Below, piece after piece: positions 5,247 to 63,431 of a stretch of DNA of 64,000 nucleotides (position 1 is the stretch's first letter; the number at the start of each line of letters is the position of its first letter). The translations under genes were made by a program, and so were the position numbers. Source of the stretch: Sphaerolaimus hirsutus. Its lineage: Eukaryota; Nematoda; Chromadorea; Monhysterida; Sphaerolaimidae. A model generated the notes under the pieces. That model saw only the letters and a list, made by a program, of their open reading frames with translations. It was not told where the DNA came from and made no database searches. Where the stretch lies: assembly GCA_964036195.1 (NCBI GenBank), contig OZ038450.1:15750701-15814700 (forward strand), read 5' to 3'.

Positions 5247-6304
5247 GTAAGTACTTCGTCGGGATTTTGAGTTGTAAAACGTTTAAAATGAAGTGTTGAA
5301 ATGATTCCGTTTTGCTGTCTTATTGGGAGTAATGTCGTTTTTTTTCGTGATATGCGACGTCGAGCCCTCAACTTCAAAATTAGTGTCAACTAGGGTTCAA
5401 ACGGGATCCCGATCCCGATCCCGGATCCCGTGAAATTCCGGGATTTACCAGTCCCGATCCCGAAACCCCGATCCCGATCCCGAAATCCAAAAATACCAAT
5501 CCCGATCCCGAAAATTTTCAAATCCCGATCCCGAGAAACTCCTAAGTCCGGGATCCCGATCCCGGAAAAATTAGTGGAAATTATAAAAAGTGAAATAATG
5601 ACGTTTTTGCATGCAAAAATGTGCACGCAAACCCCCAGCGTTGCTTTTATGCCACTTTTCTGGCATCCAACAGTGTTTTGAGACCTTTATGAACAACTGT
5701 GAATGCCAGAAAAATGGCCAAAATCTCTATCCCTAGACCCCAATCCCGATCCCGAAAAAATGCCAATCCCGATCCCGATCCCGATCCCGTGACCCCAATC
5801 CCGGCCAATCCCGATCCCGATCCCGATCCTGAAATCTCAAAAAAACAATCCCGATCCCGATCCCGAAACCCCAATCCCGATCCCGATCCCGAAATCTCAA
5901 AAAGTGAATCCCGATCCCGATCCCGAAAAGTCAATCCCGTTTGAACCCTAGTGTCAACCAAATTTTGGGTTATTATGTGATTTCTTCAACTTTCCGTTGT
6001 GATGTGCATTATTAATTTTATATCGTGACACTTGATTTTCATTGTTTCTGTTGTGTTAAATGTGATGCTTAAAAAAATTGTTTTATTTAGTTGACATTTA
6101 TTTGCGATGTCAATTGTGTGTGGGCATGTTGAGCCAAATCAGGGCATTTCTCTGTGAAGTTTTAAAAAATCGTGCGCATTTGCAGCGCGCGCGCTCGGCA
6201 TGGACGTGACCCAGATGGATCGGAATCGCTTTTTGAAAACATTTTGGGATGAATACAGAAAGGGTATTGAGCAGCAGAAGCGGCCACCCCTTGGAAAACG
6301 GTAG
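5140..6304 (+). CDS. NCBP2AS2: NCBP2AS2-like small protein, two 3' exons
   Basis: Exon 5140-5246 (acceptor TTCTTTGCAG, donor CCGCG|GTAAGT) and exon 6186-6304 (acceptor GCATTTGCAG, stop TAG) join in phase 1. The joined protein reads RLLNDPATIQRMADSRPM, RGLARLMIATYFRAKDR, ARALGMDVTQMDRNRFLK and TFWDEYRKGIEQQ. This resembles the human NCBP2-AS2 small protein as I remember it (VERLSESRPIRRAAQL at the start, RFRDAFTQELRRG at the end), a conserved metazoan family of about 100 residues of poorly known, mitochondria-linked function. The start exon should add only 5-20 residues ending with two bases of an Arg-type codon; I could not place it. A possible poly(A) signal AATAAA lies near 6540. Confidence 0.72.
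5391..5950. mobile_element. hAT-type MITE with (GATCCC)n interior, copy 1
   Basis: Terminal inverted repeats TAGGGTTCAAACGGGAT and ATTGACTT..: the right end reads AATCCCGTTTGAACCCTA. The 8-bp target duplication GTGTCAAC is at 5383-5390 and 5951-5958. TAGGG fits the hAT terminal rule YARNG. Both arms are imperfect GATCCC hexamer runs around a unique core (about 5570-5735). It lies in the intron of the NCBP2AS2-like gene. Open frames here encode only D/P/R/S low-complexity peptides and are not genes. Confidence 0.93.
6186..6304 (+). CDS. NCBP2AS2: NCBP2AS2-like terminal exon
   Basis: Opens with two bases completing a GCG alanine codon, then RALGMDVTQMDRNRFL, KTFWDEYRKGIEQQKR, PPLGKR and TAG. 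The terminal amphipathic helix with FWDEYRKGI matches the family's C-terminal RFRDAFTQEL helix in position and pattern. Confidence 0.75.
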
Positions 6305-7668
6305 TGATATTCACCTTGATGACAGCATGTATTTATAAAATTACATGGCTGTTCCCACTAGTCAGATCCTTTTACATAATTTATGTAAATATTTCTGTGT
6401 ATAAAATATTTATCTAGACGATTTATGCAAAAATTTGTGATTTCTGCACCGCTCAATCGCTCATATTCCGTGGATAATTACCTAATTAAGTTAAGTGTTG
6501 GCTGGTTACCACATGTATGCTGTGATGCTGCTAAATAATGAATAAATTTACTGTGTAAATTGTGTTCCTAAAAACATTTACCTACATATTTGTGACTAAT
6601 TATATTTTTATTTCAATTTACCTCCACATTTTTGTTTTATTATATTATTTGTCACTCTAACTAAAAAATGCAAAATACACCCATCATTCGCTGCTTACGC
6701 AGCTGCACCTTTTGACCTGTGGCACGAAACTGGCACGGCTAATCACATTCTAACAGGTGCTCGCCGGTGAATATTGGACTTTCGCCAGCTTGCATGTAAA
6801 TTTCAAATAAATTTACCGTATTTCCTCTAAATACCCCCCGCTTTGAAGAACCCCCCTCGCAATACCCCGGGTATGGGCCAGCTGAGGAAAGAATACTCCC
6901 ATAAAATTGTACAATGTGCATGATGTATATTTATTGCGGTCAATTTGCATTTTAGACTAGTTTGTGTAGCATTGTACGTTGATACCTATATCGTGTTTGG
7001 TCGCAGTTACTATACTCTGCGGACCGCAAAGTATGCGCCCAAAATTACTTACCGTATTTCCTCGAAATACCCCCCTCAAAATGGGCACTATGAATTTGTG
7101 GTCCGGGAAATGTATAACAGACATTCAAAACACTTACCTACTGTGTTACGTTAGAACATCGTTTATACCATCTACATCCTTATATAAGGCTGTAAAAACT
7201 TATAACTGGTGGTTATTGTTGCATTTTTCACGTTTTTCTCTCAAAATTTTCACTCTGAAAAAAAAAACCCGGGGGGTAATTCCAGGAAATACGGTATGTC
7301 TTAGTTGACAACTGGCGAGCAGGACACTTATGCACGCGCTTTCACAAAAAAAGGAAAAAAATTTCAAAAAAAGGCGGAGCCGAGTGAAACCAATTTGAGT
7401 GAACTCATGTTTTTTGAAGAATTTTTATTTTATGATCGATGATATCATGATGGAGTGTTTCATTAGCAAAAATGCATAGCGTGCAGTTCCTTCAAGTATA
7501 CCAGTTTTGCGTACGCAAAAAGCTTGTTTACTGCCCCTTGCACTCTGAAAAAATACTCCACCTGGGGGTATTTCGAGGTATTAAAAAATAGTAAGTATTA
7601 GTTTTAAATTGCAAATCGTGGAACTATTAGTTATTAAAATTGCAATTCGAATCTACCCGAAGTTGAAC
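6305..7668. repeat. Intergenic 3' region with element remnants
   Basis: 6305-6800 is AT-rich 3' flank with an AATAAA near 6540. The left end of a TACCGTATTT element is at 6813. A remnant of the 'CATGATGTA' core subfamily is at 6920-7000. A TACTCTGCGGACCGC end is near 7013, and a compact TACCGTATTT element spans 7050-7295. 7296-7668 shows no feature. Confidence 0.6.
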
Positions 7669-7788
7669 ATGCCGCGATCGAACGGCGACAATCGGTCGCG
7701 CCGCAGCTCCAGCGGCAGCGATGTGGACCGGGCGGCGAGCCGCGACGGCGCCAGGACTGCGCAGCAGCAGGCCCTTGGTCACAAATGA
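7669..7788 (+). CDS. Candidate first exon, Ser/Arg-rich N-terminus
   Basis: ATG at 7669 opens MPRSNGDNRSRRSSSGSD, then VDRAASRDGARTAQQQ, in a GC-rich island inside AT-rich DNA. The frame closes at 7786-7788, or could leave at donor CTTG|GTCACA (7778). Composition is exon-like; linkage to the exon at 8389 is unproven. Confidence 0.4.
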   Translation: MPRSNGDNRSRRSSSGSDVDRAASRDGARTAQQQALGHK

Positions 7789-9823: not shown

Positions 9824-11457
9824 GTTTCTTATCATTCACCTTAGAACATCATTTTCTGTGGTTATCTTCATGTTATCTTCTGAAATTCTTTCAAAGTGTT
9901 TCTTTTTTATGATCTCTTTCTTGCCGTGTGTATTTTCGACCGTTTTTGTTTGTTATTTGCGCTTTTTTACTTTTTCAAATTGGTCCCCAATTAGTGCCAA
10001 TCCTGCACACTGTCAAGTTACGTGTCATATTTATATCAGAACTCCGGTTAAAACTTGACCCAAAATTTTTCAGTCACTTTACGGCATTTTGCGGATTGAT
10101 TAAAAACAGATGTGAATTCATCAGAGGCCAGTGCCAGTTCAGAGTACCTAAATACCAATAAAATCACCAATAAATAAAATGACATAAAATCCCAATAAAA
10201 CTACCTATTATACCAAAATGTTTAAATGTCTCACGTATTTATGGGGTCAATGGGGGGGGGGGAGTACTTTTTTGTCAGTCAGCTTAAATGTAGGAGCAGT
10301 TTTCTATGGGGGACTTAATTGAGGATATACGGTATTTTAGCGGCTGCGTTCATTAAAATCGTTTGTGTCATGCTGAATATCCGTGAGCTTATTAACGTTG
10401 CTGTTTATCTTAAAAACCTTCTTCAAATAAAAACGTGTAAAGTTTTGGTGCTTATTTTGATAAGAGTGCTGATTAGGTAGATTGCAGAAGTTTGGGCAAC
10501 GTTTAGGTAGTTGAACCTTTGTGACTTCAAGTGAAGTTCGACATGGAATAGTGCTCGAATAAAGCAAAACTGTAGAAGTATGTTGGAGCACATTGGCTGG
10601 ATACATGGTGCGCTTACTTGCATGCAAAATACCTGGTGCATAAGTACTAAAAAAATTCGCTTAGTTTTCTAAAAAAAAGTTTTGATGCTTGCATTTGAAA
10701 AAAAACCTTGAAAAACACCGGCCATCCCTAGTCAGAGGTATTTTTTTACATTTTTCACATGACCGTCTTATCGTGAAACTTCCTGTAGAGAAGATGACAC
10801 ATTCCCTGTGCCAGTCCTGTCCACTTCACAAAATATACCGCCACTTCGGAAATATTCCACACTCATCTACCGTATTTTCTTGAATAATTCACCCGTGGAA
10901 CAATTCCCCTGTTAGACGAGTGAGGAAACAAAATTGCCCCTTGAATAATCATCCCTTAAGGCACATCAAGTGCGTTTGTCTAATTTTAACAAAAATGGTA
11001 ATATTATTTTGTTGAATAAAGCATACTTCGTGAAATGATTTGATAGAAATATTCTTGTTAAAATTTTACGATATAATAATTCCTCCGCTTGAATACCCCC
11101 CACGAATAGTTCCCTCTCAAAAAGTCTGACGAAATAATAATTCCCCATGGGAATTATTCGAGCAAATACGGTATATATTTTATGACACGTAGCTCTTATT
11201 GTTGGTTTTTATTGGAGGAAAGAAGGTTTCAAGTGGGCGCATTTCAGAACATTATTCAATTGATTCTGGTCGGAACCCAAGTGGGGAAACACCTATTCAT
11301 TGGGTTCAGAAATGTAAGGTGACATTAATCTTGAAAACGTTGATCAGCTTCAGTTTATGTTTTGTACGACACCATCCTCATTAAGCTGTTTCTTCGTATT
11401 TAAATAGAAAATTCTGAAAAATGTCTGACTGCCCCCAACATTATTTTTACCTGTAAG
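9824..11457. repeat. Intergenic, two TACCGTATTT-type elements
   Basis: Mostly AT-rich without coding signal. The right end of one element is at 10330 (GAGGATATACGGTA). A complete 'TTGAATAATTC' word subfamily element spans 10868-11173 (ACCGTATTTTCTTGAATAAT to ATTATTCGAGCAAATACGGTA). Open frames at 11217-11311 (ISEHYSIDSGRNPSGETP before a GTAAGG) look exon-like, but no partner was found. Confidence 0.5.
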
Positions 11458-12290
11458 CAACGATAGAGAAAAACACAGAAACTCATTGAGTTTCTGTGTT
11501 TTTGTTTTATACAGAAACACGGAAACTCAATAATTTTGAAAAACTCAATACTCAAATGAGTTTTTATAGGAGAACACAGAAACACGGAAAAACAGAAAAG
11601 TTTTTTTAGTTTTTTCTTTGCATTTGAGGAGTACTGTGCTGTCTTTGACTGGACAAAATAAGGAATGTGCATTTGATCAGGAGTCACGCTCCAGTAATTT
11701 GGTCTCGATAGATAGCAATATTAATAAACAGTGATAGATAAAAATATTGCTGGCCGATTTGGGGGGTTACACCCAGCCCCCCCCCCCCACTGAAGACTCT
11801 GCATTCGTTTTTATTGACCATGTGGGCAGTTGTTGATTCTTGTGCTTTTTCCTACATTTGAATGATAGGCTGGTTAGTAAAGTTATGTTTATATGGTATC
11901 AATCACAGTTCCTGTAAAATTTCATGTGAAGTGTAAACAGTAGAGTAAAATGTCATCAAAAATCTCAAATGCCCAGTTAAAAAGTTAAATTTTACATTTT
12001 ACATGACTGTTTACATTTTTGAGCACATAATAGAGGGTCTTCAAGTGCCCCCTGAACATGCACAACATAATTTATAATGAGAAAATCACAGTTTTTGCAT
12101 TGAAACACTGCATATAGGTAAAAACCTGCATTTTCTTATAAACTCACGTTTTCAGCAAAAAAACACAGAAGAAAAAAAACAGTTACTCAAGTTTTTTTTG
12201 CAGAAAAAACTCAAAACACAGGTATCCAATTTTGAAAAACTAAAAACACAGAAAGTGTTTTTTTAAAGAAAACTTACTTGACCATCGTTG
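11458..12290. mobile_element. hAT-type MITE, CAACGAT ends, ACACAGAAACTC words, copy 1
   Basis: Begins CAACGATAGAGAAAAACACA and ends CTTACTTGACCATCGTTG. The 8-bp duplication CCTGTAAG is at 11450-11457 and 12291-12298. The arms are runs of AAACACAGAAACTC-like words in opposite orientation. The CAACG terminus fits the hAT YARNG rule. Confidence 0.92.
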
Positions 12291-21256: not shown

Positions 21257-21413
21257 AAATATAACGTGCTATGCTTATTGGCAAATTTTTGTTCTGTGTG
21301 ATTTTAGTATGCAGTTTGGATGGGGTTACCCACTAAATCCTCCTGCTTTCTATCTAGATATTTACCTACACATCTAGGTATCTGACCCATTTTGACCTAG
21401 TTCTTTCTACCTG

Positions 21414-51100: not shown

Positions 51101-54100
51101 GGGGTGCTATGCAGCTGTATAACACCCCGGGTGTTGTGCACGGGGGGGTCCTTTACACGGAGAAATACGGTACTACTGCCTGTTCATTCGTGTCCATACG
51201 ATAGTATTGTACAAAGTGCGTAGCTACACGCAGAATATTTATTTATGTATCCGTATATCGTTATATTTCCGGACTAACCGCCATAAATCACCCATTTCTG
51301 TGCCTGAACCCATATAAGCTAGCCCCCACAAAATAACATGCCTAGCCAGCTAAATATTGCAGATGCATTGATCTTCAGCCATTTTTCAAGCAAATCTGCC
51401 CAGCAAAATGTGCGAATATCACTGCATCTCTGTGCATCATAGTTGTTGAAACGTATTTACTTTTACTCGATAAATACGTATACTCGAGTACAGAGTAAAT
51501 ACGTTTACGTTTCCTCCGAAAAAAGTTCCGGTACTCGCTTTTACGTATACTTTTTGAAAGTATTCGAGTACAGAAAACGTATTTTGGATCATCCTTTATA
51601 TAGACTTTTAAAGGCATAGAATGAAAAAAGGGAGACAATATGCTAATAATATGGGAAACTAGTCGAAAATGGGTGTAAAACAGGCAAAAAGTTATGAAAA
51701 TCAGTGATTTTGAGTGAAAATTTTGGCGGAATTTCTCAAAAGTACTCACGTTTACGTTTTCTGAGGGAAAAAGTACGTTTACTCACGTTTACTCATGAGT
51801 AAAAGTAAAAAAATTCACTTTACGTTTTATGTACTCAGGGGGTGAGTAGAAAATAAATACTTTACGTTTACGTATACTTTGAAAAAAGTTCGGTACTTTT
51901 AACAACTCTGCTGTGCATCTGATGCTGGATAGTTTCCCCTGGCGAATAGGCTTAGGTAAGTATGTGGCATTTTTGAACACCGAAAAAACATTGCTCTATG
52001 TGTTTTAGAAGTTAAACTCCAGCCTACTGTGAATGAAGTTACCAAAGCCTTTTGCGTACCGATTTTTCACCCTTTCTGAGTACGATTTCTTCTTGTGTAT
52101 AGCGTCGCATTAGTGATTATGCTAATGGTCACAATCAGCGCTAGTGCAAATCGGTGTGCTCAAGAAATTGCAACTGAAACACTAAATCAAGCTACTACTG
52201 TACGCGGTGTTTTCACTTCTTAATTTGCATTTTACCGGAAGCAATTTTGCTCCCTATCTGAGGTTGCAATCGTTTTTTTGGATGCAAAATACAACAATTT
52301 GGTGGCCCTTGAGCACCACCATGTTTCATTTTTGCATGCCCGATGAGCTTATGCGCTACCGTATATCGTTCTGCAGAAATCGTTCCATCTTTTGTGGTCT
52401 ATATGAGGTTGCGCATATTTACGCCGCTCAATTTTTGACAAAACACTCAAGTGTCATTTTTAACCAAAACAATCTCCTCTGTGTGAAAGGGAATTTGGGA
52501 ATTAAAAAATTTGACGTTTGTCGAGATACAATTTCTTGCATTCCTGAATCTGTCTCGAATGTCCGAAATTCAAAATAACAGCTCTCAATTTTTCTACACA
52601 ATTTCTACACAACGTCTGGGTGCATTCTCACCAAAACAACATACTAGCGCTGGGACTTTTCATTATTTTACTTGTGGCGATCTTGGACCCACACACACTA
52701 GCTAACATCGCAAATTAATGTCAACTGAATGTCAACTAAAAAAATTAAAAGCATCACAATTTGAATTTGAATTTAACATTTTACAATGAAAAATGAGTGT
52801 CACGATATTAAATATGCTAGGATCTATCACCACATAGGACAATTGAAATCATAAAATTACCGTATTTCCTCGAAATACCCCCCCCCCCCTCGAAATACCC
52901 CCCATCGTTCTACCCCCCCCCTCTCGAGACCACTATGAAACAATCACCCCCCGGGGGGTATTTCGAGGAAATACGGTAATCAAAATTTAGCTGAATTTAG
53001 TTGACACGAATTTTGATGTCAACTAGTGTGTGTGGGCCCAATGGCGCTTGGCGCCATGGCCTTTCGGCGCTTTTTATATCACTATTTAGTCACCAGGTCT
53101 CCTTAAGAAGATTTTCCTTTTTATCTCAATACTTCCGCCTGTCAGAAACGGAATTTTGTGAAATGCCTTGTCTTCACGTGTTGTTTCCGCATGTCGTGAT
53201 GCTTTTTTCGTGAAGCTTCCAAGACATTTACTTCCTTCAATTTTGTTCACAGCTGATGCAATTAATACAAAGGTATGCGGTAACTGTCGGCGATATTTGC
53301 ACGTATTTTAAGCGGAAATCTCAAAAATGAAATACCTAGATCGATTTTCGCGTAAACATTTGAGCTAGACAACACAAACAACTGCTTATTTTTAACTGGT
53401 TTGCAACCAGTTTACAGATGTATTCATGTGTACACATGTTTTATTTCTGCGTTTTGTTTGTATTTTACCCACAAAGATGTGAACAGTAATCGCTAGAAGT
53501 GATTCAGTGTAGCTCACTGAATATTTACCTTTCATTGTAATCTGTTTGTTTTTTATCAAGCGGAGAAATTTTTTTTCTCCATTTTATTCTTTTCATTCGC
53601 ACGTTTTCGTAATTGAATTGGCTGGTTTCGTCATTTTCCCATACATAGGTAAAATGTGAACAATTCTAGTGTCGATGCATTTACCTAATCGCAAAGCATC
53701 AATTTTGCTCGTAGCTAAGACCCTGCAAATGACATCAATTAATAATGCGAACTGTTTTTATTGCCAAACGTGATGCAATGGGCGCACTGTATTTATAATG
53801 GCCATCATCATCTAAAATTCTCGTTTTCATCCAACCACATGTGCTTTTGGTTGGCATGTGAATGGCCTTTGTGCCGGTCGGTTTTGGCTCCTGGGTTGGA
53901 TACCTGACGCTACCTAATCAAAATTAAACATTTCAATTTGAAAGCTAAATAAAATGTGTATTCCCATGAAGCAGAGTAAATGTTTGTTTGGAAAGAATTT
54001 CTTCACTGGAAACGTGTTTTCAATATCTGAAATGTATTCAAGTGCTTTCAAACCAAATATGTTTTCTTTGTGATATCTGACAGCGTGCGTGATGCCGATG

Positions 54101-57100
54101 CAATGGAAAAACATCCATGAAAACGTTTTTGCGAATCTGATTTTTCTCGTTTGTGTCTCATTATTATGCTAGCATTTAAAAAACATTTGTGTGACTTATA
54201 GGCTTTTACTTATTTACATACACGATTAAAAATTTCGGCCTAAAACCTGCTCCCTTCTCCACTTGTCATGTTTGCGCATAAGTGCCTGGTGAAAACCGCT
54301 GCACTGCCAGCTGTGTGTTTAGGCTTCCATGAACTGGTCTCGAATATCCCGAAATGGTGCGGCCTCCTCGCTGATTTTTGACCCATATTTGTTTTTAAGT
54401 TTGATTCAAAATTTTCGAAAATTACTTTGTAACGTTAGCCAGTCTTCTTTTACTAATTTAAAGCGACTGATTTGGTCAAATTTGGGTTATATGAATGATT
54501 TTTTATAACCGTTCGTAAAATTGGTTATCGAGGCTTGTTCGTTCTATCGTTTTTCCTCGAAATACCTCAGCTTGAATTAACCCCCCCCCTTGAACTTGAA
54601 TACCGTCAGGTCTAAACGAGCTGAGGAAAAAATCACGCCCCTCGAAATACCCCCCGTCTTGAATGAGGTTAATACATCATGTATGCAATGCACACCAGAG
54701 TTGTGCAAATACTGGTATTTTTGGAAAACGTAAACGTAAACGTAAATACCTTTTCCAAATCAAAAGTATAAATACAGAAACGTAAGGTATTTTTAAATTA
54801 CCAAGGAATACGTAAAAAAAACATAAATGTAAAAAAAAATTTACACACAGTATTTGCCATTGTGCTTTGGAAAATACCATTATTTTCACACGTCACAACT
54901 GGCGTCAGTCCCAGACCCTATAAAATGCCATGTAAAATGTCAAATGTAATGCAAAGTGTCTAAACAGGCATGCAAAATGCTCAGGCAGGTGGCAAATCTT
55001 TGCCATTTTGCTTGGCATTTTACATGAGTTTTACAGGGCACCCTACACAGAGTCTGGGATTGGCTGGCACCAGAGGTTGCACTCACCCTGCCAGTTTCAA
55101 AATGTGTGCTACTCACAGTTGTTGCAACTGGCGTTGTCGGAATTCATCACAAAAAATTATTAATGCAAGGCTCCACAAACAAACAAAAAGGTTTCTGTGT
55201 TCAGCATTTGAACACATTTATGAATATGTACCCAGTATTCCATGTGTAAGTGCAAGCGTGCAGTCACATTTTCATATACCGCTTTTTTGTTTGTATGTAT
55301 ACATGTTACATTTATGCAAAAACATAATAATATTGTTGGCTGCAGGTGGTGCAGCCCATTTGAACATGTGCACATGTGAACGATCACAAGTTTTTTTTAC
55401 GTTTTTCCTAGGACCCGGGTATTTTGGCTAGGAAAACGTAACAAAATGTAATGGTATTTTTGGAAAACGTAAACGTAAATGTAAGTATAAATACCCGAAT
55501 AACCGGGTATTTCGGGTAAACGTAAATACATTTTTCCAACTCTGATGCACACGATGTATTTATTTGGGCCAATTCGCATCGCAGCTACAGATAGAGTAGC
55601 TTGTATAGCTATCTACGTTTGTATGTTCTAATACGTCCCGTTTTGTGACATTTATAACAAGTTTTGGGTATGTATAAGCCTATTCTTAACTACGATCTTC
55701 ACGAAAATTTCTAGTGAAAAATACCCCCTCTAAATACCCCCCTCAACATTTTCACTCTGACAAAATAAACCCCTGTGTGTATTTCGAAGAAATAGTTGGG
55801 TAGTTTAGGTATATTTAGGTAGTTGGGTATATTTAGGCAGTTGTTCTGTTGAGAATATCGTGCCCCTTCATGCATGTATGCACAGCAGTTGAATAAAAGC
55901 ACTGTCTGGAATATAAATTTTGAAATTTTATATCATTCACTTTCGCTGTCTGTCGCATAAAGTGGGTCATTAATTCAAGTTCTAACCAAGCTGTCAACCA
56001 AGTACCTAGTCAGTCTACGAATACTGGTTATTATAAATATCTACCTATCCATATATAGTGACTAGTGTGGAAAAGCGCCAGGAAAAATGGCGCCATAGCG
56101 CTATCTGAAAAAATGGCGCCGGGCGCCAAAGGGCGCCAGAAACAATGGCGCCAACCTTAAAAAACCACTATATCAGCCTGTATATCACCACGGGTGCATT
56201 TATAGAAGAGAAATGTCTTATGCCATCTTTCTGATGTCGAAAAGCCACAAAACTCATCTTATCATAGAATAAAAAATACCATATTTCCTGTAAATACCCC
56301 AAGGGAGTTTATTTTTTTCAACAAATTTTAATGGGAGTTAATTCGAGGCGGCTTATTCGAGTGGGGTCTATTATTTCGCCAGAACCAAGCTCTGCGATGC
56401 AGTGTGTCATGAAGTTCCATCGTTCCATGCACGTTTTCTGGCATAATAATTTTATGAAAAACATTTATTGGGTATAATATCAAAAATATTTGTGTTTTTT
56501 TAAATCTAATTTTAAATCTTCACTTTAAATTACGTTACCAATTTTTGGCGTCAACACAAATTTGTAGGATTCTTACGTGGTGAATTCTTCATTTCAAATT
56601 CCGATGCTAAGGTAGTTATTTTGAGACTCGCTTTTGCTGAATTTTGCGCTGTCTAACCTACGTAAATAAATAGCAAAGTTTGCTTTCTTCAAACAGAATC
56701 AGTATTGATTTTGTTTACTAATTCTTTTTTATTTGTCCTTTGCATTTGTTTCACTTTCCAAAAGCAATAACGCAAATGCGGCCAACGGTGGGACTATTTT
56801 GCAAGTTTCCTTTTAAAAGTAAAAATAGGCGACTAGAACAGTCCCAGATAGAAGGCGGTGCCGCCATTCTAATATACCTGTAAACTTCATCAAAACCACT
56901 GATAAGTTGTCAATTCCGGAACTGGAGAAGTAAAAAGATAACTTTTAGATAATTAGTACTTCGTGAAGTGCAAAGTGAAGTAACCATGCAATTCAAGTCA
57001 AGCAAGTGAAGAGTGTAACAAAAAAGTCAATTTTTAAGCGACAAATGACGAGATAAATCAGGAAATTTATGTCCAATTATTACTTTTACCTATAACCGGT

Positions 57101-60100
57101 TACCGTATTTCTTCGATTTTATTGACTGTTCATTTACATTGCCTTGCTCGTTTACATTGTCGGGCCTGCGGGGCATCCGAAAAATACATTGCCATGTTCA
57201 AATACATTGGCGTATGAAAATATAGATGTTGCGTTATCATATTCATCACTGAATGTTTGCCGCTCTAAGGTGTCTAACAACTCTACTACTGGAAAATTTA
57301 CTCAATTTATGATGAACGCAAAGTGTAGTTTTCATTATATTTATTCCACATTCATCTCTAATTAAGAAATGCACATGGAAAAAATTATGTGGGATATACA
57401 TTGCCATGTTCATTCACTTTGCCGTGCTCGTTTACATTGCCCCCCAAAACGGCTTATGAAACAATACATTGGCGGTCAATAAAATCGAAGAAATACGGTA
57501 AGTTTAACTGCAGTTGCCTACTCAACCTTTAAATTACCATATAAAATGAAAATTTTAAATGAAAAAATTTAAATAGGTACGTGTTTTTATTCGCGAAAAC
57601 ACTCCGTCAAAGCTGGAAGCAACTGAAAAACCATTTAACGTCAGTTGAGCCATACCAATACCTTAGTTTGTTGACATAAATAGTTGGTTATGAAAATGTC
57701 ACACCACTCTATCCACCTGAATCAGCACTCACTCAGCTGGTGTAAAGGATTGTATAGTTTCTGATTCATATTTTTCGACAAAATATAAATAGGTATACTC
57801 GACGGACCGCATGCTATGCTTTTTCTGCAGGAAACACTCCATCATGACGTCATCTTAAAAAAATAATTCCAGCAAAGAAAAAAGAAAAAAACATGACGGG
57901 AAAAACATTCCTCGTTGGTACGCGGCTCTGCCTTTTTCTTTTTTTAATATTCTTGTTTTGGTGAAAGTGCATACATAAGTATCCAGCACGCGCGTTATCG
58001 GCCAAGACATAAATAATTTTAGGCGCATACTTCGCGGTCCGCCGTGTATCATATTTTGTGTACCTTAGAAATAATATTGAGGCCGGCACTAGATTTTTTG
58101 ATGCGAGTATCGTTTTTTTCCATCTGTTTTATTTCTCGACAGATGTAATCAGACAATAATGATACGCACGCTGAATCACACCCACTTTCTTGTCAAGTTG
58201 AGTTTCTGATTCATGAATTGATCGAGAAATTTTTTTCTGCTGTGTGACTGGACAGTCTTCCCGTCAATTGTATATTATTATACCCGTTAATTGCTGGATT
58301 TGACGCCTTAAAATGTACAGTGTGTGAAAATGCGCTGACAACAGAGAGTTTTCATTGCTCCGCTCTTATTTCTTCTGTGACTTTTCTGTTTTGTGATATT
58401 TGCTGCCATATTTGTTTTGATCGAACAGAATACTTCTAATTGATGCGCGCCTTCACTAGAAAATCCACTTTTCGACTTTTTTGCAGTCACGAAATAAAAG
58501 GAACGTACCCAATAGAAGAGAATGTAAAAAAGAAGTGCGCTTTAAAGATTAAATATTTTCAGCGTGAACCTATGGTATGGTTATGGCTATGTATTCAGCT
58601 TAAAACAAACAATTCACACGGAGAGAAATTTCATGTTTCCCCCATCAATTGAAACCCAATCGACAATCAAAACTTTCTAGGCCAATTACTAAAGTATGAT
58701 AACTAAATTAATCCCCACATTTGTAAACATTGAACACAGGTGCGCGTGCGTGTCACGGTGCCGTACCGTGTTCAGAGTAAGTACTGCACTGAACAGATGA
58801 ATAGTGCATACACTCCAGCCAGTATTTTACCTGTGCGTAGGCACTAGTACATTGGTAGTATTCAGCCAAGGCCGTGCAGATGACCACAGTGGTCAGAAAG
58901 TGCATGGACACGAATGTTTTTCTTTTCCGGACAACTTTTCAAAGTGGTTAAACATAAATTACCCAACTGAAAAAAGGATTAAATCAAAATTCAAAAAAAA
59001 ATAGAAAAATTTCACATTTTACTATTATAAACATTACATTTTACTTTTACATCGTTTTCCAAAATAACTTGACTGGTTAAGTTATTTTGGAAAACAATTT
59101 AAAAGTATTGAAATGTGGCCACACCATTAGTTTTTACTGAAATTTCCAAAACTGATAAATTTGTTTTATATACACTTGAGTTTGATGGACTCCAAATTCT
59201 GGCAAACTCAATGCACCCAAATAAATTAGGTATACTCGGCGGACAGCACACCTACCGTAGTATGGAAACCTACCATACTTTGATGAATAAAATCGTGTGA
59301 TAAATTTCGTACTTTATTATTCATTGGTAAAAACGAAATATTATGATGTAAAAGGTGTATAATTTTTGGTTCATTATTCAGGTGGGTGATGGTTAACGAT
59401 GGCAAACCTCCCAGAAAAAAGTATTTAAATTTTTAAGTGTTTTTTCTAAAATGAATTTTCGAATTTTTTCCCATATTAATTTTCGAATTTCGAATTTAAT
59501 TTTCGAATTTTTGAATTTTCGAATCTTTTTTGGCAGTTTTCGAATTTTTTTAGAAAAGTATTGAATTTGAAGCTTCAAACACAGTATTTGGACTGTTTTC
59601 ATGTTTGGAGCCCCTTTTAACCTTAATTTCACTGTAAATGAAGCATGACATGACAGTTTCACTTCACTTTAACATGACAAATGGTAGAAACAATTACCAT
59701 ATTTCCTCGAATTACCCACCGGGGAGTATATTTTTTCAGAGTGGAAATTTTGAGGGGGTTAAACGAGGGGTGGTATTTCGTGGGGGGGGGGTTAATAAAT
59801 TCATAGTGCCCATTTTGAGGGGGGGTATTTCGAGGAAATACGGTATGTGGATCAGTTTGCACCATTTGGGGCTGAATGCCTTCCAAAAACGTTTGTGTGA
59901 AAGCCCCTCGGAAGACCCGCGAGCGATTTTTTTGATGAACCGGCATCTGTATCCTTTTTCAGACCCACCGCATATCAATTGTCGCTTTATTCAGTACACT
60001 GAACTTAAGACTGCGTTTTGTAGCCTTCAATTACCTGAAAAATTCGAAAACTATTTTTGAATTTTTGAATTTTCGAATTTTAGAATTTTTTAAAAAATAA

Positions 60101-62787
60101 ATCGATTTTTAAGTGTTTTTTCCAGGGGTGAAATAAAAATTCGAAAATTATGAAAAAATTCGAAAATTCGAAAATATTTTCGAATTTTCGAATCTTTTTT
60201 TGCCATCGTTAGTGATGGTTGGTTTTCATACTAAGTGTGATGTCTGCCGAGTACAACAACACAGTGCTAGACAATGCTGATAAACATGCTTCAAAAAGCA
60301 TGTTTTTGCATTTTTAGTAACATTTATTTGAATAAACTGGATTGGGAAAAATAAAGCCTACCAATTGTCTAGTAGTTGAACTTACTACAAGCAATACAAC
60401 AAGTGCCTATACTTTTTTTTACCACTTAAATACCATATTTCTTGTCAACAGTAACTTACGGAATTCGCCTCTAGTCATTGTTCTTAGGGCATGCATAAAT
60501 CACCTCACCATTCATCCTATCGATTATTCCATATTTACAATTTACACGGCTGGCGCTGACCCATTACTTCTGTGTCAATACTTTTACTTCCCCGCCCAGT
60601 TTCTCATGCCGGTTTTGTACTCGGTACTGTTTGCATTATTCAAATGTGTTCGATTGACTTGTGATGTCCAAGCAGCGCGGTCTGATGCAGTTCCTAGTAT
60701 TTTACACACACACATGCGAATAGGCAATTTCACGAAATTGTTCAAAAAACATGTGTGCGTTTGTGACTCACCTAAAGTGGTGGCGTGGCGATGTCGACAT
60801 GGCTCTAGTGTCACTAGCGAACTAGCGAGATGAATGCGTCTTTCGTGCCACTTGCATATTCAGGCCGTGCCTTTGCACTGTCGCCCTTCACTTTTGCGTG
60901 ACACGACAGCGCGAAATTCGCCGCCTTCTTCTTGTCTCGCTGCACGTTTTTTGCTCTTTCGCATGCATTTTAATCGTAAAACGGCCTGTGTACATAAAGT
61001 GTATGCATTTATCGTCACATTTGCCATTTTATACAAATTGCGACCTTCAGGACATTCTAAATACGATACTCTGGACTCGTTGCCACGTATCGCGCACTTA
61101 ATCAGGACCGCATTCGAACGCGGTGCACCGCAACCTGAACACCGAATGAAGTGGTGCGGCTGCGTGCCGTGCGGTCGGCGGCGGCGGCGCGGCAGCCGTC
61201 GCAGCAGCGGTCGTCGGTTGCCGGCCGTGCCGTCGCCGTGTCTAGGCGGCAGCGAGCCCGAAGAGTCCTCGTCGTCGTTCGGCTCGTCCTGGCTGGGCTC
61301 CTACGGCGACCTGTGCGAGCAGGCCGACAGCGCGCTGCCAGAGTACGAGCGCGGCGCCGAAGCGGCTGCTGATGCGGCTACGTGCGCCGCGGCCGCCATT
61401 GTGTCCTTCCCGGCCGGCGAACACGTCGACCATGGCGGCCAGGCCACACTCAAGTACAACGACCAACATGTGCGATTGTGCGAAAATGATAGCCAGAATA
61501 ATAATTTGCCGGCGCTACCGCATTCGACTGCGGATGGCGTAGACAGTGTGCGTTTTCTGCGTTGTTTTCTGTTTGTGTATTGAAATGCTGACAAAACTTT
61601 CCATCCGCTATTTCTGTCACAAAACGACATATCCAGTCACGGGTGCCACGCAAACAGAAATTTCAAAATACTTCAGAGAACCTAAATTTCCACCAAGTAT
61701 TTGTGTATGTGTCTATTTGAGTTGAGCCGTGTAGTGATTTGGCAATTGGTACGGCTCACACGAATTTGACGCCTGTCGTTGCAATTCAAAAGTTCTCATT
61801 TATAAAAATAGATCTAAAAATAGATCTAAGAATTTGAATCGACCAACTTAAGTGCGATACTTAAGTTTTGTGTAAAAACTAAAGGACGACATGAGCATTC
61901 AATCCAACAAATCCTTCAAAAGTGTGCTAGTGTTGGTTGACCGATTGCCTTATCTTGTCGCAAATGCGGCTCGTGTCTGAACTGGAGAAATCGCAATCGT
62001 AGTTCTCGATCGAACCGCCAACGTTTGGTTACGTGCGGTTTGGACACCCGGGTCATGCAGGTTGTGAACTTTGTTGTTTGGGCTCATGGGGGCGGCCATG
62101 CCCTATCTACCGGATCTGAGCTTCATGTAAATGCTAATTAAGAATACATTCTTTTATATGAATTTCCGAACCGAACCAACTGCAGAGTTATTGCTCAAGT
62201 ACACTCATTAATATTTACAGGTGATGAAAGACGATGGGACGCACTTGTGGAAGTTGCGTCGCTTCAAACGTGCCGCCATGTGCAACGTGTGCCTGCAGGC
62301 GCTGGTCGCCTGGGGCGGTAAACAGGGATTGTCCTGCACATGTGCGTTTGTGACGGGGGAAGTGTTTTGGGTCGGGGGAGGCTTGGTGTCTTCAAACGTT
62401 GTTAAAATGGTGTCATGCGTTTTCCCCGGCCCTCCACACTATTACTTTCAGAACCACTGACGCCCCAACTCGGGCACAAACTTCGCAGTGTGCAAGTACA
62501 CGGTGCACGAGCGGTGCGTGCCGCGCGCGCCGCACAACTGCATCAGCACGTACGTGAAGAGTCGGCGCGCCGGCGGCGCCATGTCGCACCACTGGGTCGA
62601 GGGCAACTGCAACGAGCGGTGCGCAAAGTGTGCAAAGTGGGTGCGCACCTTCGACGCGGGCAGGCGGTGCAGATGGTGCCAGACCACGCTGCACGCCAAG
62701 TGCGCCGCTCAGTGGAAGGCCGACTGCGATTTGGGCCCGCTCGCCTATCACATTCTGCCGCCCACGGCTATTTGTCCGGCCGTTTTG
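33025..62787 (+). CDS. DGK: Class I diacylglycerol kinase, N-terminal two thirds; catalytic domain beyond window
   Basis: Phosphorylates diacylglycerol to phosphatidate at membranes, terminating DAG/PKC signalling. Exons by hand: 33025-33119, 33508-33566, 33635-33714, 35742-35907, 39977-40111, 40343-40483, 40704-40946, 41497-41621, 42392-42511, 62221-62341 and 62489-62787; all joins from 33508 onward agree in phase. Domains in order: recoverin-homology region ([29 protein letters not shown], a long Ser/Ala-rich linker, then [16 protein letters not shown]); EF hand 1 [14 protein letters not shown] hand 2 [12 protein letters not shown] with LLVLLG after it; two C1 zinc fingers with all Cys/His ligands; and the family ILPPTAICP segment that leads to the kinase domain. 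This order is specific to the EF-hand (alpha/beta/gamma-like) class. The 19.7-kb intron 42512-62220 is packed with transposons. Confidence 0.95.
33503..33566 (+). CDS. DGK: DGK exon, start of recoverin-homology region
   Basis: Encodes [17 protein letters not shown], the conserved start of class I DGKs (LSPxxFxQLQxY). Donor TCGT|GTAAGT in phase 1. Two acceptors are possible: ACAACAG before 33503 (phase 0) or GAAGAG before 33508 (third codon base, which suits exon 33025-33119). Two acceptors with different phases fit the idea of alternative first exons. Confidence 0.88.
33635..33714 (+). CDS. DGK: DGK exon, recoverin-homology region
   Basis: Acceptor GCGCTTTCAG, donor CCAAC|GTTGGT. Two leading bases complete TAC, giving [18 protein letters not shown] across the junction, as in DGK 'YSTKKxxDVLEEF'. 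It ends [12 protein letters not shown] in phase 0. Confidence 0.85.
33887..34726. mobile_element. hAT-type MITE, CAACGATGG ends, copy 3
   Basis: CAACGATGGAAAAAACACAG to CTTACCCATCGTTG. The 8-bp duplication ATAATAAC is at 33879-33886 and 34727-34734. It lies in the DGK intron 33715-35741 and interrupts an AAATGCCATG-word array (33765-33880) that starts CAGTCCCAGACCCTGTAAAA. Confidence 0.92.
34740..35172. mobile_element. TACCGTATTT element with CCTTCTATTGGAGAC words
   Basis: TACCGTATTTCTTCTAATAG to CTATTAGAAGAAATACGGTA. The arms reiterate GCCCTTCTATTGGAGACG. The outer ten bases are those of the CGAAATACCCCCC family, but all the rest is different. Confidence 0.85.
35181..35646. mobile_element. 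TACCGTATTT palindromic element, inverted orientation copy
   Basis: TACCGTATTTCCTCGAAATA to its complement, adjacent to the preceding element (9 bp apart). Core in reverse orientation to 20793. It ends 95 bp before DGK exon 35742-35907. Confidence 0.85.
35742..35907 (+). CDS. DGK: DGK exon, recoverin-homology region, poly-Ala linker
   Basis: Acceptor TTCCGCGCAG, donor TCAAAG|GTAAAA, phases 0 and 1. It encodes [36 protein letters not shown] and an Ala7 run. This matches the class I DGK pattern 'YEGFxxFLxxYLE...LxxxLFxSF'. Confidence 0.93.
36560..37399. mobile_element. hAT-type MITE, CAGAGTTG ends, CGTAAATACC words, copy 2
   Basis: CAGAGTTGCGAAAACGTATT to CAGTATTTGTACAACTCTG. The 8-bp duplication CAAGAGAC is at 36552-36559 and 37400-37407. 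The arms are ACGTTTACGTTT and GTATTT words. A decayed GCCAGTTCCGC-type foldback (36790-37040) is nested inside. Confidence 0.92.
37400..37957. other. DGK intron, no feature seen
   Basis: AT-rich DNA between the element ending at 37399 and the one starting at 37958. An open frame at 37454-37711 has no exon-type composition and no recognisable motif. Confidence 0.4.
37958..38419. mobile_element. TACCGTATTT palindromic element, near-identical inverted copy
   Basis: TACCGTATTTCCTCGAAATA to its complement. The core is the reverse complement of those at 20793-21256 and 31760-32209 (CGCCATTTATAAGGTTCTGT, TGTACACTGTTCTAACGTGA). Confidence 0.88.
38507..38750. mobile_element. GCCAGTTCCGC foldback MITE, intronic copy
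   Basis: GCCAGTTCCGCAAATTGAGA to TTCTCAATTTGCGGAACTGG, with GAGAAGTGAGAAG and complementary words. It is the same family as the copy in the AGK exon. No clear target duplication. Confidence 0.8.
39367..39810. mobile_element. MITE with TGCTGCGATTACAGCTCG ends, copy 2
   Basis: TGCTGCGATTACAGCTCGAA to GAGCTGTAATCGCAGCA, flanked by TAC at 39364-39366 and 39811-39813. It shares the CGTAAAATT words and the TACCAGAAGTTATGAATTTT core with 14994-15426. Confidence 0.82.
39977..40111 (+). CDS. DGK: DGK exon, Ser-rich linker of RVH region
   Basis: Acceptor AAACTGCAG; two leading bases complete GGC. It encodes [36 protein letters not shown] and LQQSVAKS. The donor TCCA|GTTGGT (after 40111) leaves phase 1, as the next exon needs; other GT sites nearby give the wrong phase. 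Low-complexity, probably disordered and lineage-specific. Confidence 0.8.
40343..40483 (+). CDS. DGK: DGK exon, linker
   Basis: Acceptor AATCATCAG, donor TCGCACG|GTATCG. It encodes [36 protein letters not shown] and [10 protein letters not shown], a variable linker. Phases 1/1 fit both neighbours. Confidence 0.8.
40704..40946 (+). CDS. DGK: DGK exon, end of RVH region, [13 protein letters not shown]
   Basis: Acceptor CCGCCTCCAAG, donor TTAGAGT|GTAGGT. A Ser/Pro-rich stretch ([27 protein letters not shown]) leads into [20 protein letters not shown] and RPEDKLE. The last segment is one of the strongest signatures of class I DGKs. Confidence 0.96.
40947..41496. other. DGK intron with TACCTACCTA-type tracts
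   Basis: Short AGGTAGGT and TACCTACC tracts (about 41280-41370) and AT-rich DNA. No element ends seen. Confidence 0.5.
41497..41621 (+). CDS. DGK: DGK exon, EF hand 1
   Basis: Acceptor CCACACTTGCAG, donor GAGCCG|GTCTGC. Encodes [34 protein letters not shown] and TIELEP. The 12-residue Ca2+ loop [12 protein letters not shown] has D1, D3, N5, V7 main chain, D9 and E12, so it is predicted to be functional. Confidence 0.97.
42198..42333. mobile_element. Short TACCGTATTT palindrome just 5' of DGK EF2 exon
   Basis: TACCGTATTTCCTCTAAATA to TTTCGAGGAAATACGGTA, 136 bp, all words and no core. It ends 58 bp before exon 42392. Confidence 0.8.
42392..42511 (+). CDS. DGK: DGK exon, EF hand 2
   Basis: 40 codons; acceptor GTGCACATTCAG, donor GACCAG|GTTGGC, phases 0/0. 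Encodes [33 protein letters not shown] and VLLGFDQ. The loop [12 protein letters not shown] is canonical, and the following [10 protein letters not shown] is invariant in the class. Confidence 0.97.
42649..43195. mobile_element. mariner-like MITE, CAGGGTGGCCCACG ends
   Basis: CAGGGTGGCCCACGTCAGGC to GTCGTGGGCCACCCTG, flanked by TA (42647-42648, 43196-43197). GGCAGTAGATAAATGTACC and TCAGGTGCACGGTTTTAAT blocks recur two or three times in the interior. It is the first of many elements in the 19.7-kb DGK intron. Confidence 0.87.
43531..45014. mobile_element. Large foldback element with 130-bp inverted arms
   Basis: The 8-bp duplication GATTAAAT is at 43523-43530 and 45015-45022. The arms 43555-43690 and 44860-44995 are near-perfect inverted repeats containing CATATCACAGTTTGT and CCCTGCACATGCC blocks. 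The outer tips are only loosely inverted (GGAGTGTGCTACATT versus GGGTAGATCACATTT). A decayed TACCGTATTT-type element (about 44468-44819) is inside. No long ORF. Confidence 0.85.
45023..47430. other. DGK intron, no gene; small remnants
   Basis: 45585-45735 holds TTATTCAAGGGGGAGTTATT words from a decayed element. 46855-46945 holds a GTATACTTTTTGTAAGTAT word cluster. The rest is AT-rich without exon signal. Confidence 0.45.
47437..47890. mobile_element. Two tandem ACTAGT foldback elements
   Basis: 47437-47662 and 47668-47890 each run GCTGCACACACTAGTTTACT to its complement, with GTCAACTACAGTTGACGG at the centre. The second copy has GTAAACTATTTTGTGTGTGC at its end, a small change from the first. 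Their similarity implies duplication or repeated insertion in one place. Confidence 0.82.
48987..49503. mobile_element. hAT-type MITE, CAACGATGGG ends, copy 4
   Basis: CAACGATGGGAAAAACACAG to TTACCCATCGTTG. The 8-bp duplication AATAGAAC is at 48979-48986 and 49504-49511. Confidence 0.93.
49796..49900 (+). other. Open, exon-like segment in DGK intron
   Basis: After AACTTTTAG the frame reads [18 protein letters not shown] and [13 protein letters not shown] before ACT|GTAATC. It looks protein-like but sits between foldback arms and has no phase partner. It may be a relic of a transposon gene or chance. Confidence 0.25.
50173..50758. other. DGK intron, no feature except word remnant
   Basis: AT-rich; 50620-50700 carries GGGGTGGTTATTGAAGGGGG and AACAGGGAGATTTATTCAAA words from a decayed element. 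Confidence 0.4.
50759..51172. mobile_element. TACCGTATTT element with CACCCGGGTG words
   Basis: TACCGTATTTCTCCGTGTAA to TTTACACGGAGAAATACGGTA. The arms reiterate AACACCCGGGTGTTA and GCACCCGGGTGC. Only the outer TACCGTATTT links it to the other subfamilies. Confidence 0.85.
51438..51910. mobile_element. hAT-type MITE, (C)A..AGTTG ends, copy 3
   Basis: CATAGTTGTTGAAACGTATT to GGTACTTTTAACAACTCTG. The 8-bp duplication CTGTGCAT is at 51430-51437 and 51911-51918. Words ACTTTTACTCG, GTATACTCGAGTAC and TTTACGTATAC. Confidence 0.87.
51919..52687. other. DGK intron, no feature seen
   Basis: AT-rich; an open frame at 52207-52578 has no exon-like borders or motif and is treated as chance. Confidence 0.4.
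52688..53038. mobile_element. ACTAGT foldback element with nested TACCGTATTT palindrome
   Basis: CCCACACACACTAGCTAACA to TGTCAACTAGTGTGTGTGGG. A 121-bp all-word palindrome (52858-52978, TACCGTATTTCCTCGAAATA to its complement) is inserted in it. A GGCGCC-word fragment follows at 53038-53085. Confidence 0.82.
53090..54540. other. DGK intron, no feature seen
   Basis: AT-rich DNA; no element with two ends and no exon-like segment. Confidence 0.45.
54696..55544. mobile_element. hAT-type MITE, CAGAGTTG ends, copy 4, nested in an older palindrome
   Basis: CAGAGTTGTGCAAATACTGG to ATTTTTCCAACTCTG. The 8-bp duplication ATGCACAC is at 54688-54695 and 55545-55552. Words AACGTAAACGTAAATACC. It carries a nested CAGTCCCAGACCCTATAAAA foldback (about 54905-55070), and itself split an older TACCTCG-subfamily element (about 54545-55790). 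Confidence 0.93.
56060..56190. mobile_element. Short GGCGCC-word element
   Basis: TAGTGTGGAAAAGCGCCAGG to CCAACCTTAAAAAACCACTA, with AATGGCGCCGGGCGCCAAAG words: a diverged TAGTGATG-type copy without a recognisable target duplication. Confidence 0.65.
56278..57100. other. DGK intron with element remnants
   Basis: 56278-56395 is a decayed TACCGTATTT-type left end. GTCAATTCCGGAACTGGAGAAG near 56920 is a relic of the GCCAGTTCCGC family. The rest is AT-rich. Confidence 0.4.
57101..57499. mobile_element. TACCGTATTT element with TTCATTTACATTGCC words
   Basis: TACCGTATTTCTTCGATTTT to AAAATCGAAGAAATACGGTA. The interior has at least eight imperfect GTTCATTTACATTGCC or GCTCGTTTACATTGC words. Confidence 0.85.
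57793..58048. mobile_element. TACTCGGCGGAC-type element
   Basis: TATACTCGACGGACCGCATG to TACTTCGCGGTCCGCCGTGTA. Confidence 0.72.
58049..59232. other. DGK intron, no gene seen
   Basis: AT-rich; a short foldback AAATAACTTGACTGGTTAAG with TTATTTTGGAAAAC arms lies near 59050-59095. Confidence 0.4.
59233..60253. mobile_element. Three-level nested transposon set
   Basis: Outer: TACTCGGCGGAC element, left end at 59233 and right end GTGATGTCTGCCGAGTA to 60253. Middle: hAT-type element 59394-60211. Inner: TACCATATTTCCTCG palindrome (about 59694-59845). Each level is bounded by its own inverted ends, which gives the order of insertion. Confidence 0.88.
59394..60211. mobile_element. hAT-type MITE, TAACGATGGC ends, GAATTTTC words
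   Basis: TAACGATGGCAAACCTCCCA to TTTTTTTGCCATCGTTA. The 8-bp duplication GTGATGGT is at 59386-59393 and 60212-60219. Arms of TTCGAATTTTCGAATTTT words. Its ends resemble the CAACGATGGG family, but the words differ entirely. Confidence 0.93.
61146..61547 (+). CDS. DGK: Candidate alternative DGK first exon
   Basis: A GC-rich, CpG-dense segment (about 61140-61460) opens at ATG 61146 and reads [34 protein letters not shown] and [18 protein letters not shown], ending DGVDS at donor ACAGT|GTGCGT in phase 0. The next acceptor, 62220|62221, also needs phase 0 and opens the C1 exon. A transcript starting here would make a DGK without the RVH and EF-hand domains, with a Cys-rich N-terminus that could be palmitoylated. 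The frame is open upstream to 60834, so the start could be earlier. Coding potential and linkage are inferred. Confidence 0.55.
61548..62220. other. Intron between alternative exon and DGK C1 exon
   Basis: AT-rich, with no repeat that I can define. It ends in the acceptor ATATTTACAG. Confidence 0.5.
62221..62341 (+). CDS. DGK: DGK exon, first half of C1 finger 1
   Basis: Encodes [36 protein letters not shown] and LSCT; donor CACAT|GTGCGT in phase 1. It carries the first His and first three Cys ligands of C1a with standard spacing, and the KQGLSC signature. Confidence 0.97.
62489..62787 (+). CDS. DGK: DGK exon, C1 finger 1 end, C1 finger 2
   Basis: Acceptor AACTTCGCAG; two leading bases complete TTG, giving [14 protein letters not shown] across the junction. 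C1a closes with C-X2-C-X4-H-X2-C-X7-C. C1b follows ([28 protein letters not shown], then ADC). The exon ends [16 protein letters not shown] at TTTTG|GTTTGT in phase 0. The catalytic DAGKc domain must start beyond 64000. Confidence 0.97.
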
Positions 62788-62847
62788 GTTTGTTTTTGAG
62801 TGGTTTTTGATGGTGCGCGTTCTGATTTTCACAGACGATCAGACGAG

Positions 62848-63431
62848 TAGGGTTCAAACGGGATCCCGATCCCGATCCCGGATCCCGTGAAATTCCGGGA
62901 TTTACCAGTCCCGATCCCGATCCCGATCCCGAAACCCCAATCCCGATCCCGATCCCGAAATCTCAAAAATACCAATCCCGATCCCGATCCCGATCCCGAA
63001 AGTTTTCAAATCCCGATCCCGATCCCGAGAAACTCCCAAGTCCGGGATCCCGATCCCGGAAAAATTAGTGGAAATTATAAAAAGTGAAATAATGACGTTT
63101 TTGCATGCAAAAAAAGTGGATGCAATCCCCCAGCGTCAATTTTATGCCACTTTTCTGGCATCCAACAGTGTTTTGAGACCTTTATGAACAACTGTGAATG
63201 CCAGAAAAATGGCCAAAATCTCTATCCCTAGAACCCAATCCCGATCCCGGAAAAATGCCTATCCCAATCCCGATCCCGATCCCGTGACCCCAATCCCGGC
63301 CAATCCCGATCCCGATCCCGATCCCGAAATCTCAAAAAACCAATCCCGATCCCGATCCCGATCCCGAAATCTCAAAAAGTGAATCCCGATCCCGATCCCG
63401 ATCCCGAAAAGTCAATCCCGTTTGAACCCTA
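62848..63431. mobile_element. hAT-type MITE with (GATCCC)n interior, copy 2
   Basis: TAGGGTTCAAACGGGATCCC to AATCCCGTTTGAACCCTA. The 8-bp duplication CAGACGAG is at 62840-62847 and 63432-63439. The core is nearly identical to 5391-5950, but the hexamer runs differ in number. It inserted 60 bp after a DGK exon. Confidence 0.94.

Follow-up and report, generated by a model that had tools for sequence, protein, structure and literature searches.

Arms of small nematode transposons as arrays of predicted transposase-binding words

Introduction

A stretch of 64,000 nucleotides from the nematode Sphaerolaimus hirsutus (contig OZ038450.1 of assembly GCA_964036195.1, positions 15,750,701 to 15,814,700; hereafter the window, numbered from its first base) carries families of small transposons in which short inverted tips enclose arms of repeated words, raising the question of what the words are for and why each family should have its own. 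On the evidence of sequence, we think that these are probably non-autonomous cut-and-paste transposons, of hAT type in families F1–F5 and TA-bordered in a further family, S2, with arms that are arrays of predicted transposase-binding words. An initial annotation of the window had listed six pairs of tip and word, all of which we found, and its outer bounds, 5391 and 63431, coincide with the left border of the first GATCCC element and the right border of the last.

Results

Five families with inverted tips and 8-bp duplications

Thirteen elements across five families, including two variants of F5 (F5c and F5d), end in short inverted tips, and all of them (13/13) are flanked by exact 8-bp duplications, a count that is not independent because the duplication helped set the borders. 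Ten were taken from a duplication scan, and three (F2a, F5c, and F5d) had borders drawn by eye and then checked. F1 (GATCCC) and F2 (GGCGCC) have two members each, F3 (ACACAG/AAACTC) has four, F4 (TTCGAA) has one, and F5 (GTAAACG/AAATACC) has two in addition to its variants:

5391..5950, no strand assigned: F1a, GATCCC element; tips TAGGGTTCAAACGGGAT, duplication GTGTCAAC
62848..63431, no strand assigned: F1b, GATCCC element; duplication CAGACGAG
23151..23888, no strand assigned: F2a, GGCGCC element; tips TAGTGATGG / TGGTGATCG, duplication GTCTAAAG
25249..26538, no strand assigned: F2b, GGCGCC element; duplication GTCATGTC; nested S2 without right tip at about 25538-26037
11458..12290, + strand: F3a, ACACAG/AAACTC element; tips CAACGAT(A/G)G, duplication CCTGTAAG
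21976..23131, - strand: F3b, ACACAG/AAACTC family; duplication CCCACGCA; S2-like insertion at about 22436-22763, by eye
33887..34726, + strand: F3c, ACACAG/AAACTC family; duplication ATAATAAC
48987..49503, + strand: F3d, ACACAG/AAACTC family; duplication AATAGAAC
59394..60211, no strand assigned: F4, TTCGAA element; tips TAACGATGGC, duplication GTGATGGT; close to its right end, a near-perfect palindrome of 46 bases
36560..37399, + strand: F5a, GTAAACG/AAATACC element; tips CAGAGTTG, duplication CAAGAGAC
54696..55544, - strand: F5b, GTAAACG/AAATACC family; duplication ATGCACAC
51438..51910, + strand: F5c, F5 variant with changed words; tips CATAGTTG/CAGAGTTG, duplication CTGTGCAT
15804..16158, - strand: F5d, F5 variant with diverged words; tips CAGAGTTG / AAGAGTTT, duplication GTAAAATG

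Accepting exact or one-mismatch 8-bp duplications adjoining inverted tips, a wide scan returned 133 candidate pairs in the window; two control shuffles in blocks of 7 bases gave 51 and 54. The F1–F5 tips begin C/T-A (TAGGGTTC, TAGTGATG, CAACGATGG, TAACGATGG, and CAGAGTTG), the exceptions being one F2a end (TG) and one F5d end (AA); the hAT consensus is a short inverted tip starting C/T-A. Superfamilies other than hAT also make duplications of ~8 bp. Subterminal repeats are present in all five families, most weakly in F3a, F5b, and F5d, and the CACTA tip is absent from the F1–F5 and S2 tips examined. Because of their 8-bp duplications and tips, F1–F5 are best assigned, as far as such features indicate, to non-autonomous hAT transposons.

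Words are concentrated in the arms and continue the tips

The two F1 copies contain their commonest 7-mer 27 and 31 times, against at most 7 times in 200 dinucleotide shuffles. The top 7-mer exceeds all 200 shuffles in 10/13 F1–F5 elements and equals the highest shuffle in F3a, F5b, and F5d; in F5a it is ATATATA (13 copies), with the family word AAACGTA at 12. Across control 800-base intervals of the window (216 remaining after 84/300 were discarded for overlap with listed elements, and still including S2 and F7), the top 7-mer averages 5.1, with a 95th percentile of 9.25 and a maximum of 15; four of the 13 elements (F3a, F5b, F5c, and F5d) do not exceed that percentile. The words occupy the arms, about 140–230 bp where measured. 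That they fill the whole element, as first proposed, was an overstatement, since 7-mers present at least three times cover 23–69% (21/33 elements measured).

Counting exact copies of word patterns that we selected, we found them nearly confined to delimited elements: 45/47 in F1, 32/36 and 15/15 in F3, 12/13 in F4, 8/8 in F5, and 11/12 in F7 (a further family, listed below), as well as 33/37 in S2, 5/5 in S2b, 3/4 in S2c, and 7/7 in S2d. F2 is the exception, with 57/83 copies inside and 26/83 outside.

The base pairs next to the tip match the interior of their own family 50, 24, 21, 15, 14, and 10 times in F1, F2, F3, F4, F5, and F5c, respectively, compared with 0–6 matches to the interiors of other families; the one exception is the F5–F5c pair, where matches to the partner are roughly as numerous as matches to self. 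Among S2 subtypes, own-interior matches number 8 (S2a), 10 (S2b), 4 (S2c), 0 (S2d), 5 (S2e), 2 (S2f), and 6 (S2a2). The claim that the outer words are continuous with the terminal repeat therefore stands for F1–F5 and for S2a, b, c, and e, where the tip-adjacent bases best match their own interior, and falls for S2d and S2f.

Arms are kept where cores differ

We compared copies within families. F5a and F5b agree at 89% over bp 1-152 and at 91% over bp 700-840 (the outer 152 and 141 bp), with no match between their cores. F3a and F3c have arms in common and no core match, F3b and F3c have the core in common too, and the stretch common to F3a and F3d slightly exceeds the left arm. Substitutions are similar between F1a and F1b in arms (13/379) and core (7/161), whereas indels amount to 63 bp in the arms (18, 13, 6, 20, and 6) versus 1 bp in the core; the number of words therefore varies between copies. 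By blastn, F5a has 75 bp in common with F5c and no match to F5d; the two variants appear to be kin to F5a from their tips and from alignment. At several sites in F5c, words that are CCCGGG-like in F5a look CTCGAG-like to the eye.

Two arm layouts

The arms had been described as opposite-orientation copies of one word. This is not general: in F1, F2, F3, F5, and S2, both arms carry the main word on the same strand. After reversed copies were turned, the strand counts are 71 versus 6 for F1 ATCCCG, 23 versus 4 for F2 TTGGCGC, 25 versus 4 for F3 AACACAGAAA, and 21 versus 2 for TTTACG in F5a–c. Comparison of left and right halves gave more direct than inverted matching in 12/13 hAT elements and direct matching only in 10/12 S2 elements, the others being S2c (19 direct versus 13 inverted) and S2e (0 versus 15). 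Of the longer repeats described below, L43524 has mainly inverted arms and L48211 gave 119 direct versus 166 inverted; F7c and S5 are near even. Half comparison and strand counts therefore reveal two layouts, one with inverted tips around one-strand arms, the other with the arms themselves inverted.

S2, a TA-bordered family with a one-end palindrome

Elements with TACCGTATTTC tips, here called S2, share these tips among at least four further word types besides the main word; S2 is one tip with several words. We analyzed 16 pairs out of 18 drawn by hand from a tip list, excluding 25539-26036 and 44475-44818 (lost or diverged end) and leaving other lone tips unpaired. The following illustrate the range:

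37958..38419, + strand: S2a, TACCGTATTTC tips, word CTCGAAATACCCCCC; palindrome ACCCCCCGGGGGGT, left end only
31760..32208, - strand: S2a copy; palindrome at the right end only
20793..21257, - strand: S2a copy; palindrome at the right end only
24710..25137, + strand: S2a variant; palindrome ACCCCCATGGGGGT, left end only
3941..4330, + strand: S2a variant; palindrome ACCCACATGTGGGT, left end only
34740..35172, + strand: S2b, S2 tips, word CTTCTATTGGAGA; palindrome AATAGAAGGGCGCCCTTCTATT, centre 26.5, left end only
50759..51172, + strand: S2c, S2 tips, word AACACCCGGGTG; palindrome GCACCCGGGTGC, centre 27.5, at the left; right-end palindrome at centre 45
57101..57500, no strand assigned: S2d, S2 tips, word TACATTGCC; no score-4 palindrome in the tested interval at either end
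10868..11173, - strand: S2e, S2 tips, word CTCGAATAATTCCC; palindrome AATAATTCCCATGGGGAATTATT, right end only

None of the 16 pairs (0/16) shows an exact 8-bp duplication at any of five border choices. One AT-rich copy matches at 7/8 positions, and one border choice reaches z of about 2 at 9 and 10 bp (45 tests). The TACCGTATTT family thus fails the duplication test for hAT, and we rejected hAT membership for S2. The borders carry T on the left in 15/16 pairs and A on the right in 16/16, as would a Tc1/mariner/pogo-like element with a TA target, though this TA could also be part of the inverted tip.

Scoring palindromes centred 25–29 bp from the tip, we found one with a score of at least 4 at one end in 14/16 pairs (centres 25–28), at both ends in 0, and at neither in 2. 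Scores of 4 were reached by 14/32 ends versus 11% of shuffled ends, and scores of 6 by 10/32 versus 1.4%. When the 32 scores were dealt randomly to pairs, "never both" had P = 0.003 at cut-off 4, and the mean difference between ends had P = 0.0004–0.001. The palindromes differ in sequence (ACCCCCCGGGGGGT, ACCCCCATGGGGGT, ACCCACATGTGGGT, AATAGAAGGGCGCCCTTCTATT, GCACCCGGGTGC, AATAATTCCCATGGGGAATTATT, and AAATACACCCAGGGGGTTTATTT); the copies are related, and palindromes scoring at least 6 represent about seven distinct sequences. The layout therefore seems to be kept while the sequence changes. S2 is the case of interest, failing the hAT duplication test yet having the clearest one-end palindrome.

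Palindromes also rise above shuffles in F3 (3/4 copies), in F4, and at F2 right ends. A one-end palindrome as a rule for all hAT families was dropped, as F1 and F5 do not rise above shuffles.

Further repeats and exons in the window

Another family, F7, is absent from the initial list:

3372..3592, no strand assigned: F7, tips GTGCCAGTTCCGCAA / GGGCCAGTTCCGCAG; words GAAGTGA and TGGCAAA in inverted arms
38505..38753, no strand assigned: second copy of F7

Tips like GTGCCAGTCCC occur at 19492-19773, 33769, 54896, and 63766 (the last two by eye). Their words (AACTCTTAA, AAAATGCC, and AAAGTG) differ from F7's, and these elements are possible further relatives of F7. Tips of CACACACTAGTT, one mismatch allowed, lie at 14463, 14693, 24340, 31146, 37057, 47446, 47652, 47672, 52692, and 53032, preceding varied inner words (such as TTTTCAC, TTTAC, and TTGACA), which makes them another common tip with changing words. 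At 14980-15430 and 39368-39810 are two nearly full-length inverted repeats of ~450 bp (P15), with CTGCGATTACAGCTCGA-like tips and a GGGCGTAAAATT-like word. Inverted arms of ~180 bp built of 38-bp words mark 43524-45022 and 48211-50164, the latter containing F3d, and by eye an F1 right-end fragment (2256-2303) lies within an inverted element at 1939-2503.

Amid these dense small transposons, the window holds exons with diacylglycerol-kinase-type domains (DAG_kinase_N, C1, and DAGK_cat). Pfam scanning of 10 open reading frames (ORFs) matched three, to diacylglycerol-kinase-type domains with an overlapping NAD-kinase match, and left seven without a match.

Searches for relatives elsewhere

Four viral contigs with GATCCC arrays (L001–L004) were rejected as relatives, there being no matching tips by eye in ~700 bases around each match; their CCCGATCCCGATCCCG arrays adjoin alternating TGTATGTGTATA-like stretches. 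We also rejected 23 contigs of bacteria or archaea in which a tip like that of S2 occurs (L005–L027), their examined sequence containing no S2-like element; L025 and L026 have a second tip-like string nearby, but what follows the tip does not resemble S2. S2 tips had no match in two scans of viral contigs. A sequence search of papers with six elements gave nothing related by title among the matches listed.

Discussion

Arms as predicted address arrays

We propose that each end consists of a short cutting tip followed by a word array that would be read by the DNA-binding domain of that family's transposase, acting in trans. The arrays may lengthen by tandem duplication or slippage, the extra sites being harmless or helping to capture a shared enzyme, and word and enzyme may change together, which would give families with similar tips and different words. 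The one-sided palindrome could be a high-affinity end, so that left and right ends would be paired with each other, as has been suggested for Hermes. The initial annotation had likewise taken the words for expanded transposase-binding sites; their location in the arms, their family specificity, the retention of arms where cores differ, and the changes in number agree with this, and what does not hold is that they fill the element or lie in opposite orientation in most families.

Several results weigh against our proposal. No transposase domain was found in the 10 Pfam-scanned ORFs, out of 45 of at least 110 amino acids in the window; an autonomous hAT partner would be expected to encode a transposase with a BED-type DNA-binding domain. 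Some words are on mixed strands (29 versus 15 for F3 AAACTC, 11 versus 7 for F5 AAATACC, and 8 versus 4 for F4 TTTTCGAA), and in the half comparison F5a is more inverted than direct, F2b, F3a, and F4 are near even, and the arms of F7a, F7b, and P15 are inverted. The word-swap test was failed by S2d, and S2f is not specific. The count of 14 one-end S2 palindromes depends on an interval and a cut-off of 4 that were picked after the elements had been viewed, and 4 of the 14 score just 4, a level that 11% of shuffled ends attain. At cut-off 6, one end qualifies in 10/16 pairs, both in 0, and none in 6, with P = 0.13 for "never both"; without five similar S2a copies (11 pairs), P becomes 0.05 at cut-off 4, 0.25 at cut-off 6, and 0.02 for the mean difference. 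Some other ends have palindromes at other distances (e.g., 51171, centre 45), and those of F1 and F5 are not above shuffles, with better-end P values of 0.18–0.19 and 0.13–0.59, respectively. For the domesticated hAT enzyme Kat1, a counter-example on polarity, the repeats are reported to point differently at the two ends (PMC4763223).

Could the words instead be neutral slippage products beside the tip, microsatellites grown within miniature inverted-repeat transposable elements (MITEs) and without a binding role, their direct orientation reflecting one array split by an inserted core? Such growth would account for arms in direct orientation that match each other directly, for the 6-bp steps among F1 indels (18, 6, and 6), and for the lack of a core match between F5a and F5b or F3a and F3c. 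Neutral growth would not lead one to expect that arms stay ~90% identical while cores are replaced, that words lie almost entirely within elements, or that a palindrome of varied sequence sits at a nearly constant distance from one tip (a point that weakens once similar copies are removed), and we judge it unlikely.

Capture of satellites, in which genomic tandem repeats were later enclosed by transposon ends, has been reported for a CACTA element (PMC8978399) and would suit F2, with 26/83 word matches outside its two delimited elements and a cluster at 8184-8230 where no tip was seen by eye. We nevertheless regard it as highly improbable here, since the word continues the inverted tip, exact word copies of the other families are nearly all inside elements, and two of the F2 clusters (53043 and 56079) resemble, by eye, remnants with a TAGTGA-like end. 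It would be more surprising still if the arms acted by folding, through hairpins or small RNAs, and not by binding protein: the mainly inverted arms of F7a, F7b, P15, and L43524 and the long palindromes near one end in F3 and F4 fit this, but arms in F1, S2, and most of F3 and F5 match each other for the most part directly, which does not favour long hairpins between the arms.

Beyond arms that probably serve as binding arrays, it is conceivable, if doubtful, that unrelated cut-and-paste transposons have an end code in common. It would comprise a fixed cutting tip, a changeable family word serving as address, and, at a nearly constant distance, a mirrored word that marks the left end, the word being wholly replaceable and the mirrored layout kept. 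If arms are address arrays, the DNA-binding specificity of a transposase could be read from MITE sequence where transposases are unknown, and orphan MITEs could be matched to their enzymes. A one-sided palindrome would make left/right asymmetry, shown in the Hermes complex, countable in any genome and testable in elements failing the hAT duplication test.

Comparison with known systems

Parts of this organization are known already. Repeated subterminal words occur in hAT elements (PMC4890040) and species-varying motifs in CACTA elements (PMC8978399); with the Ds2 ends (PMC3260210), these descriptions do not support the initial view that nothing of the kind had been named. Subterminal repeats (STRs) have been termed a defining feature of hAT elements, Tgf2 having 17 and 18 (PMC4890040), and those of Ac are AAACGG hexamers (PMC3260210). 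The Herves transposase binds a short motif, CG/AATTCAT, repeated at both ends, for which four direct copies are enough, and bound regions vary between hAT elements (PMC3143072). Among proteins that descend from hAT DNA-binding domains, the motifs bound are diverse; those of four hAT proteins correspond to their own subterminal regions (PMC8097297). We did not meet near-contiguous arrays, one-strand arms in several families, or a one-sided palindrome of changing sequence in TA-bordered MITEs in the open-licence literature searched.

The maize Ds2 element keeps ends of about 200 bp around unrelated filler, paralleling the repeat-bearing ends around unrelated cores seen here; unlike those of the window elements, Ds2 ends match a known Ac (PMC3260210). 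The CACTA elements called Jozin carry 19–23 copies of a 12-bp motif over both ends, and the motif varies among species, with three versions among four species. One tip with a changing motif is common to Jozin and the window elements, whereas the window elements lack the CACTA tip and CACTA units are both direct and inverted (PMC8978399).

Like Hermes, Ac, Herves, and Tgf2, the window elements have short words inside short inverted tips, 8-bp duplications (in F1–F5), and words that differ between elements, and the Herves left end is likewise a hAT end with tandem repeats (PMC3143072). Their nearly contiguous arrays in small elements differ from the interspersed STRs of Hermes and from hAT ends generally, where repeats are described as haphazard. 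In Hermes, STR1 and STR2 form a quasi-palindrome at the left end, STR2–7 are antisense, and right-end STR1–5 are sense (PMC10368747), orientations that may be read as one direction along one strand. The main words of F1, F2, F3, F5, and 10/12 S2 elements likewise run one way on one strand, as F4, F7, P15, F3 AAACTC, and F5 AAATACC do not. A left/left Hermes element is inactive, and it is the palindromic left end of Hermes that the S2 palindrome, present at one end only, resembles (PMC10368747).

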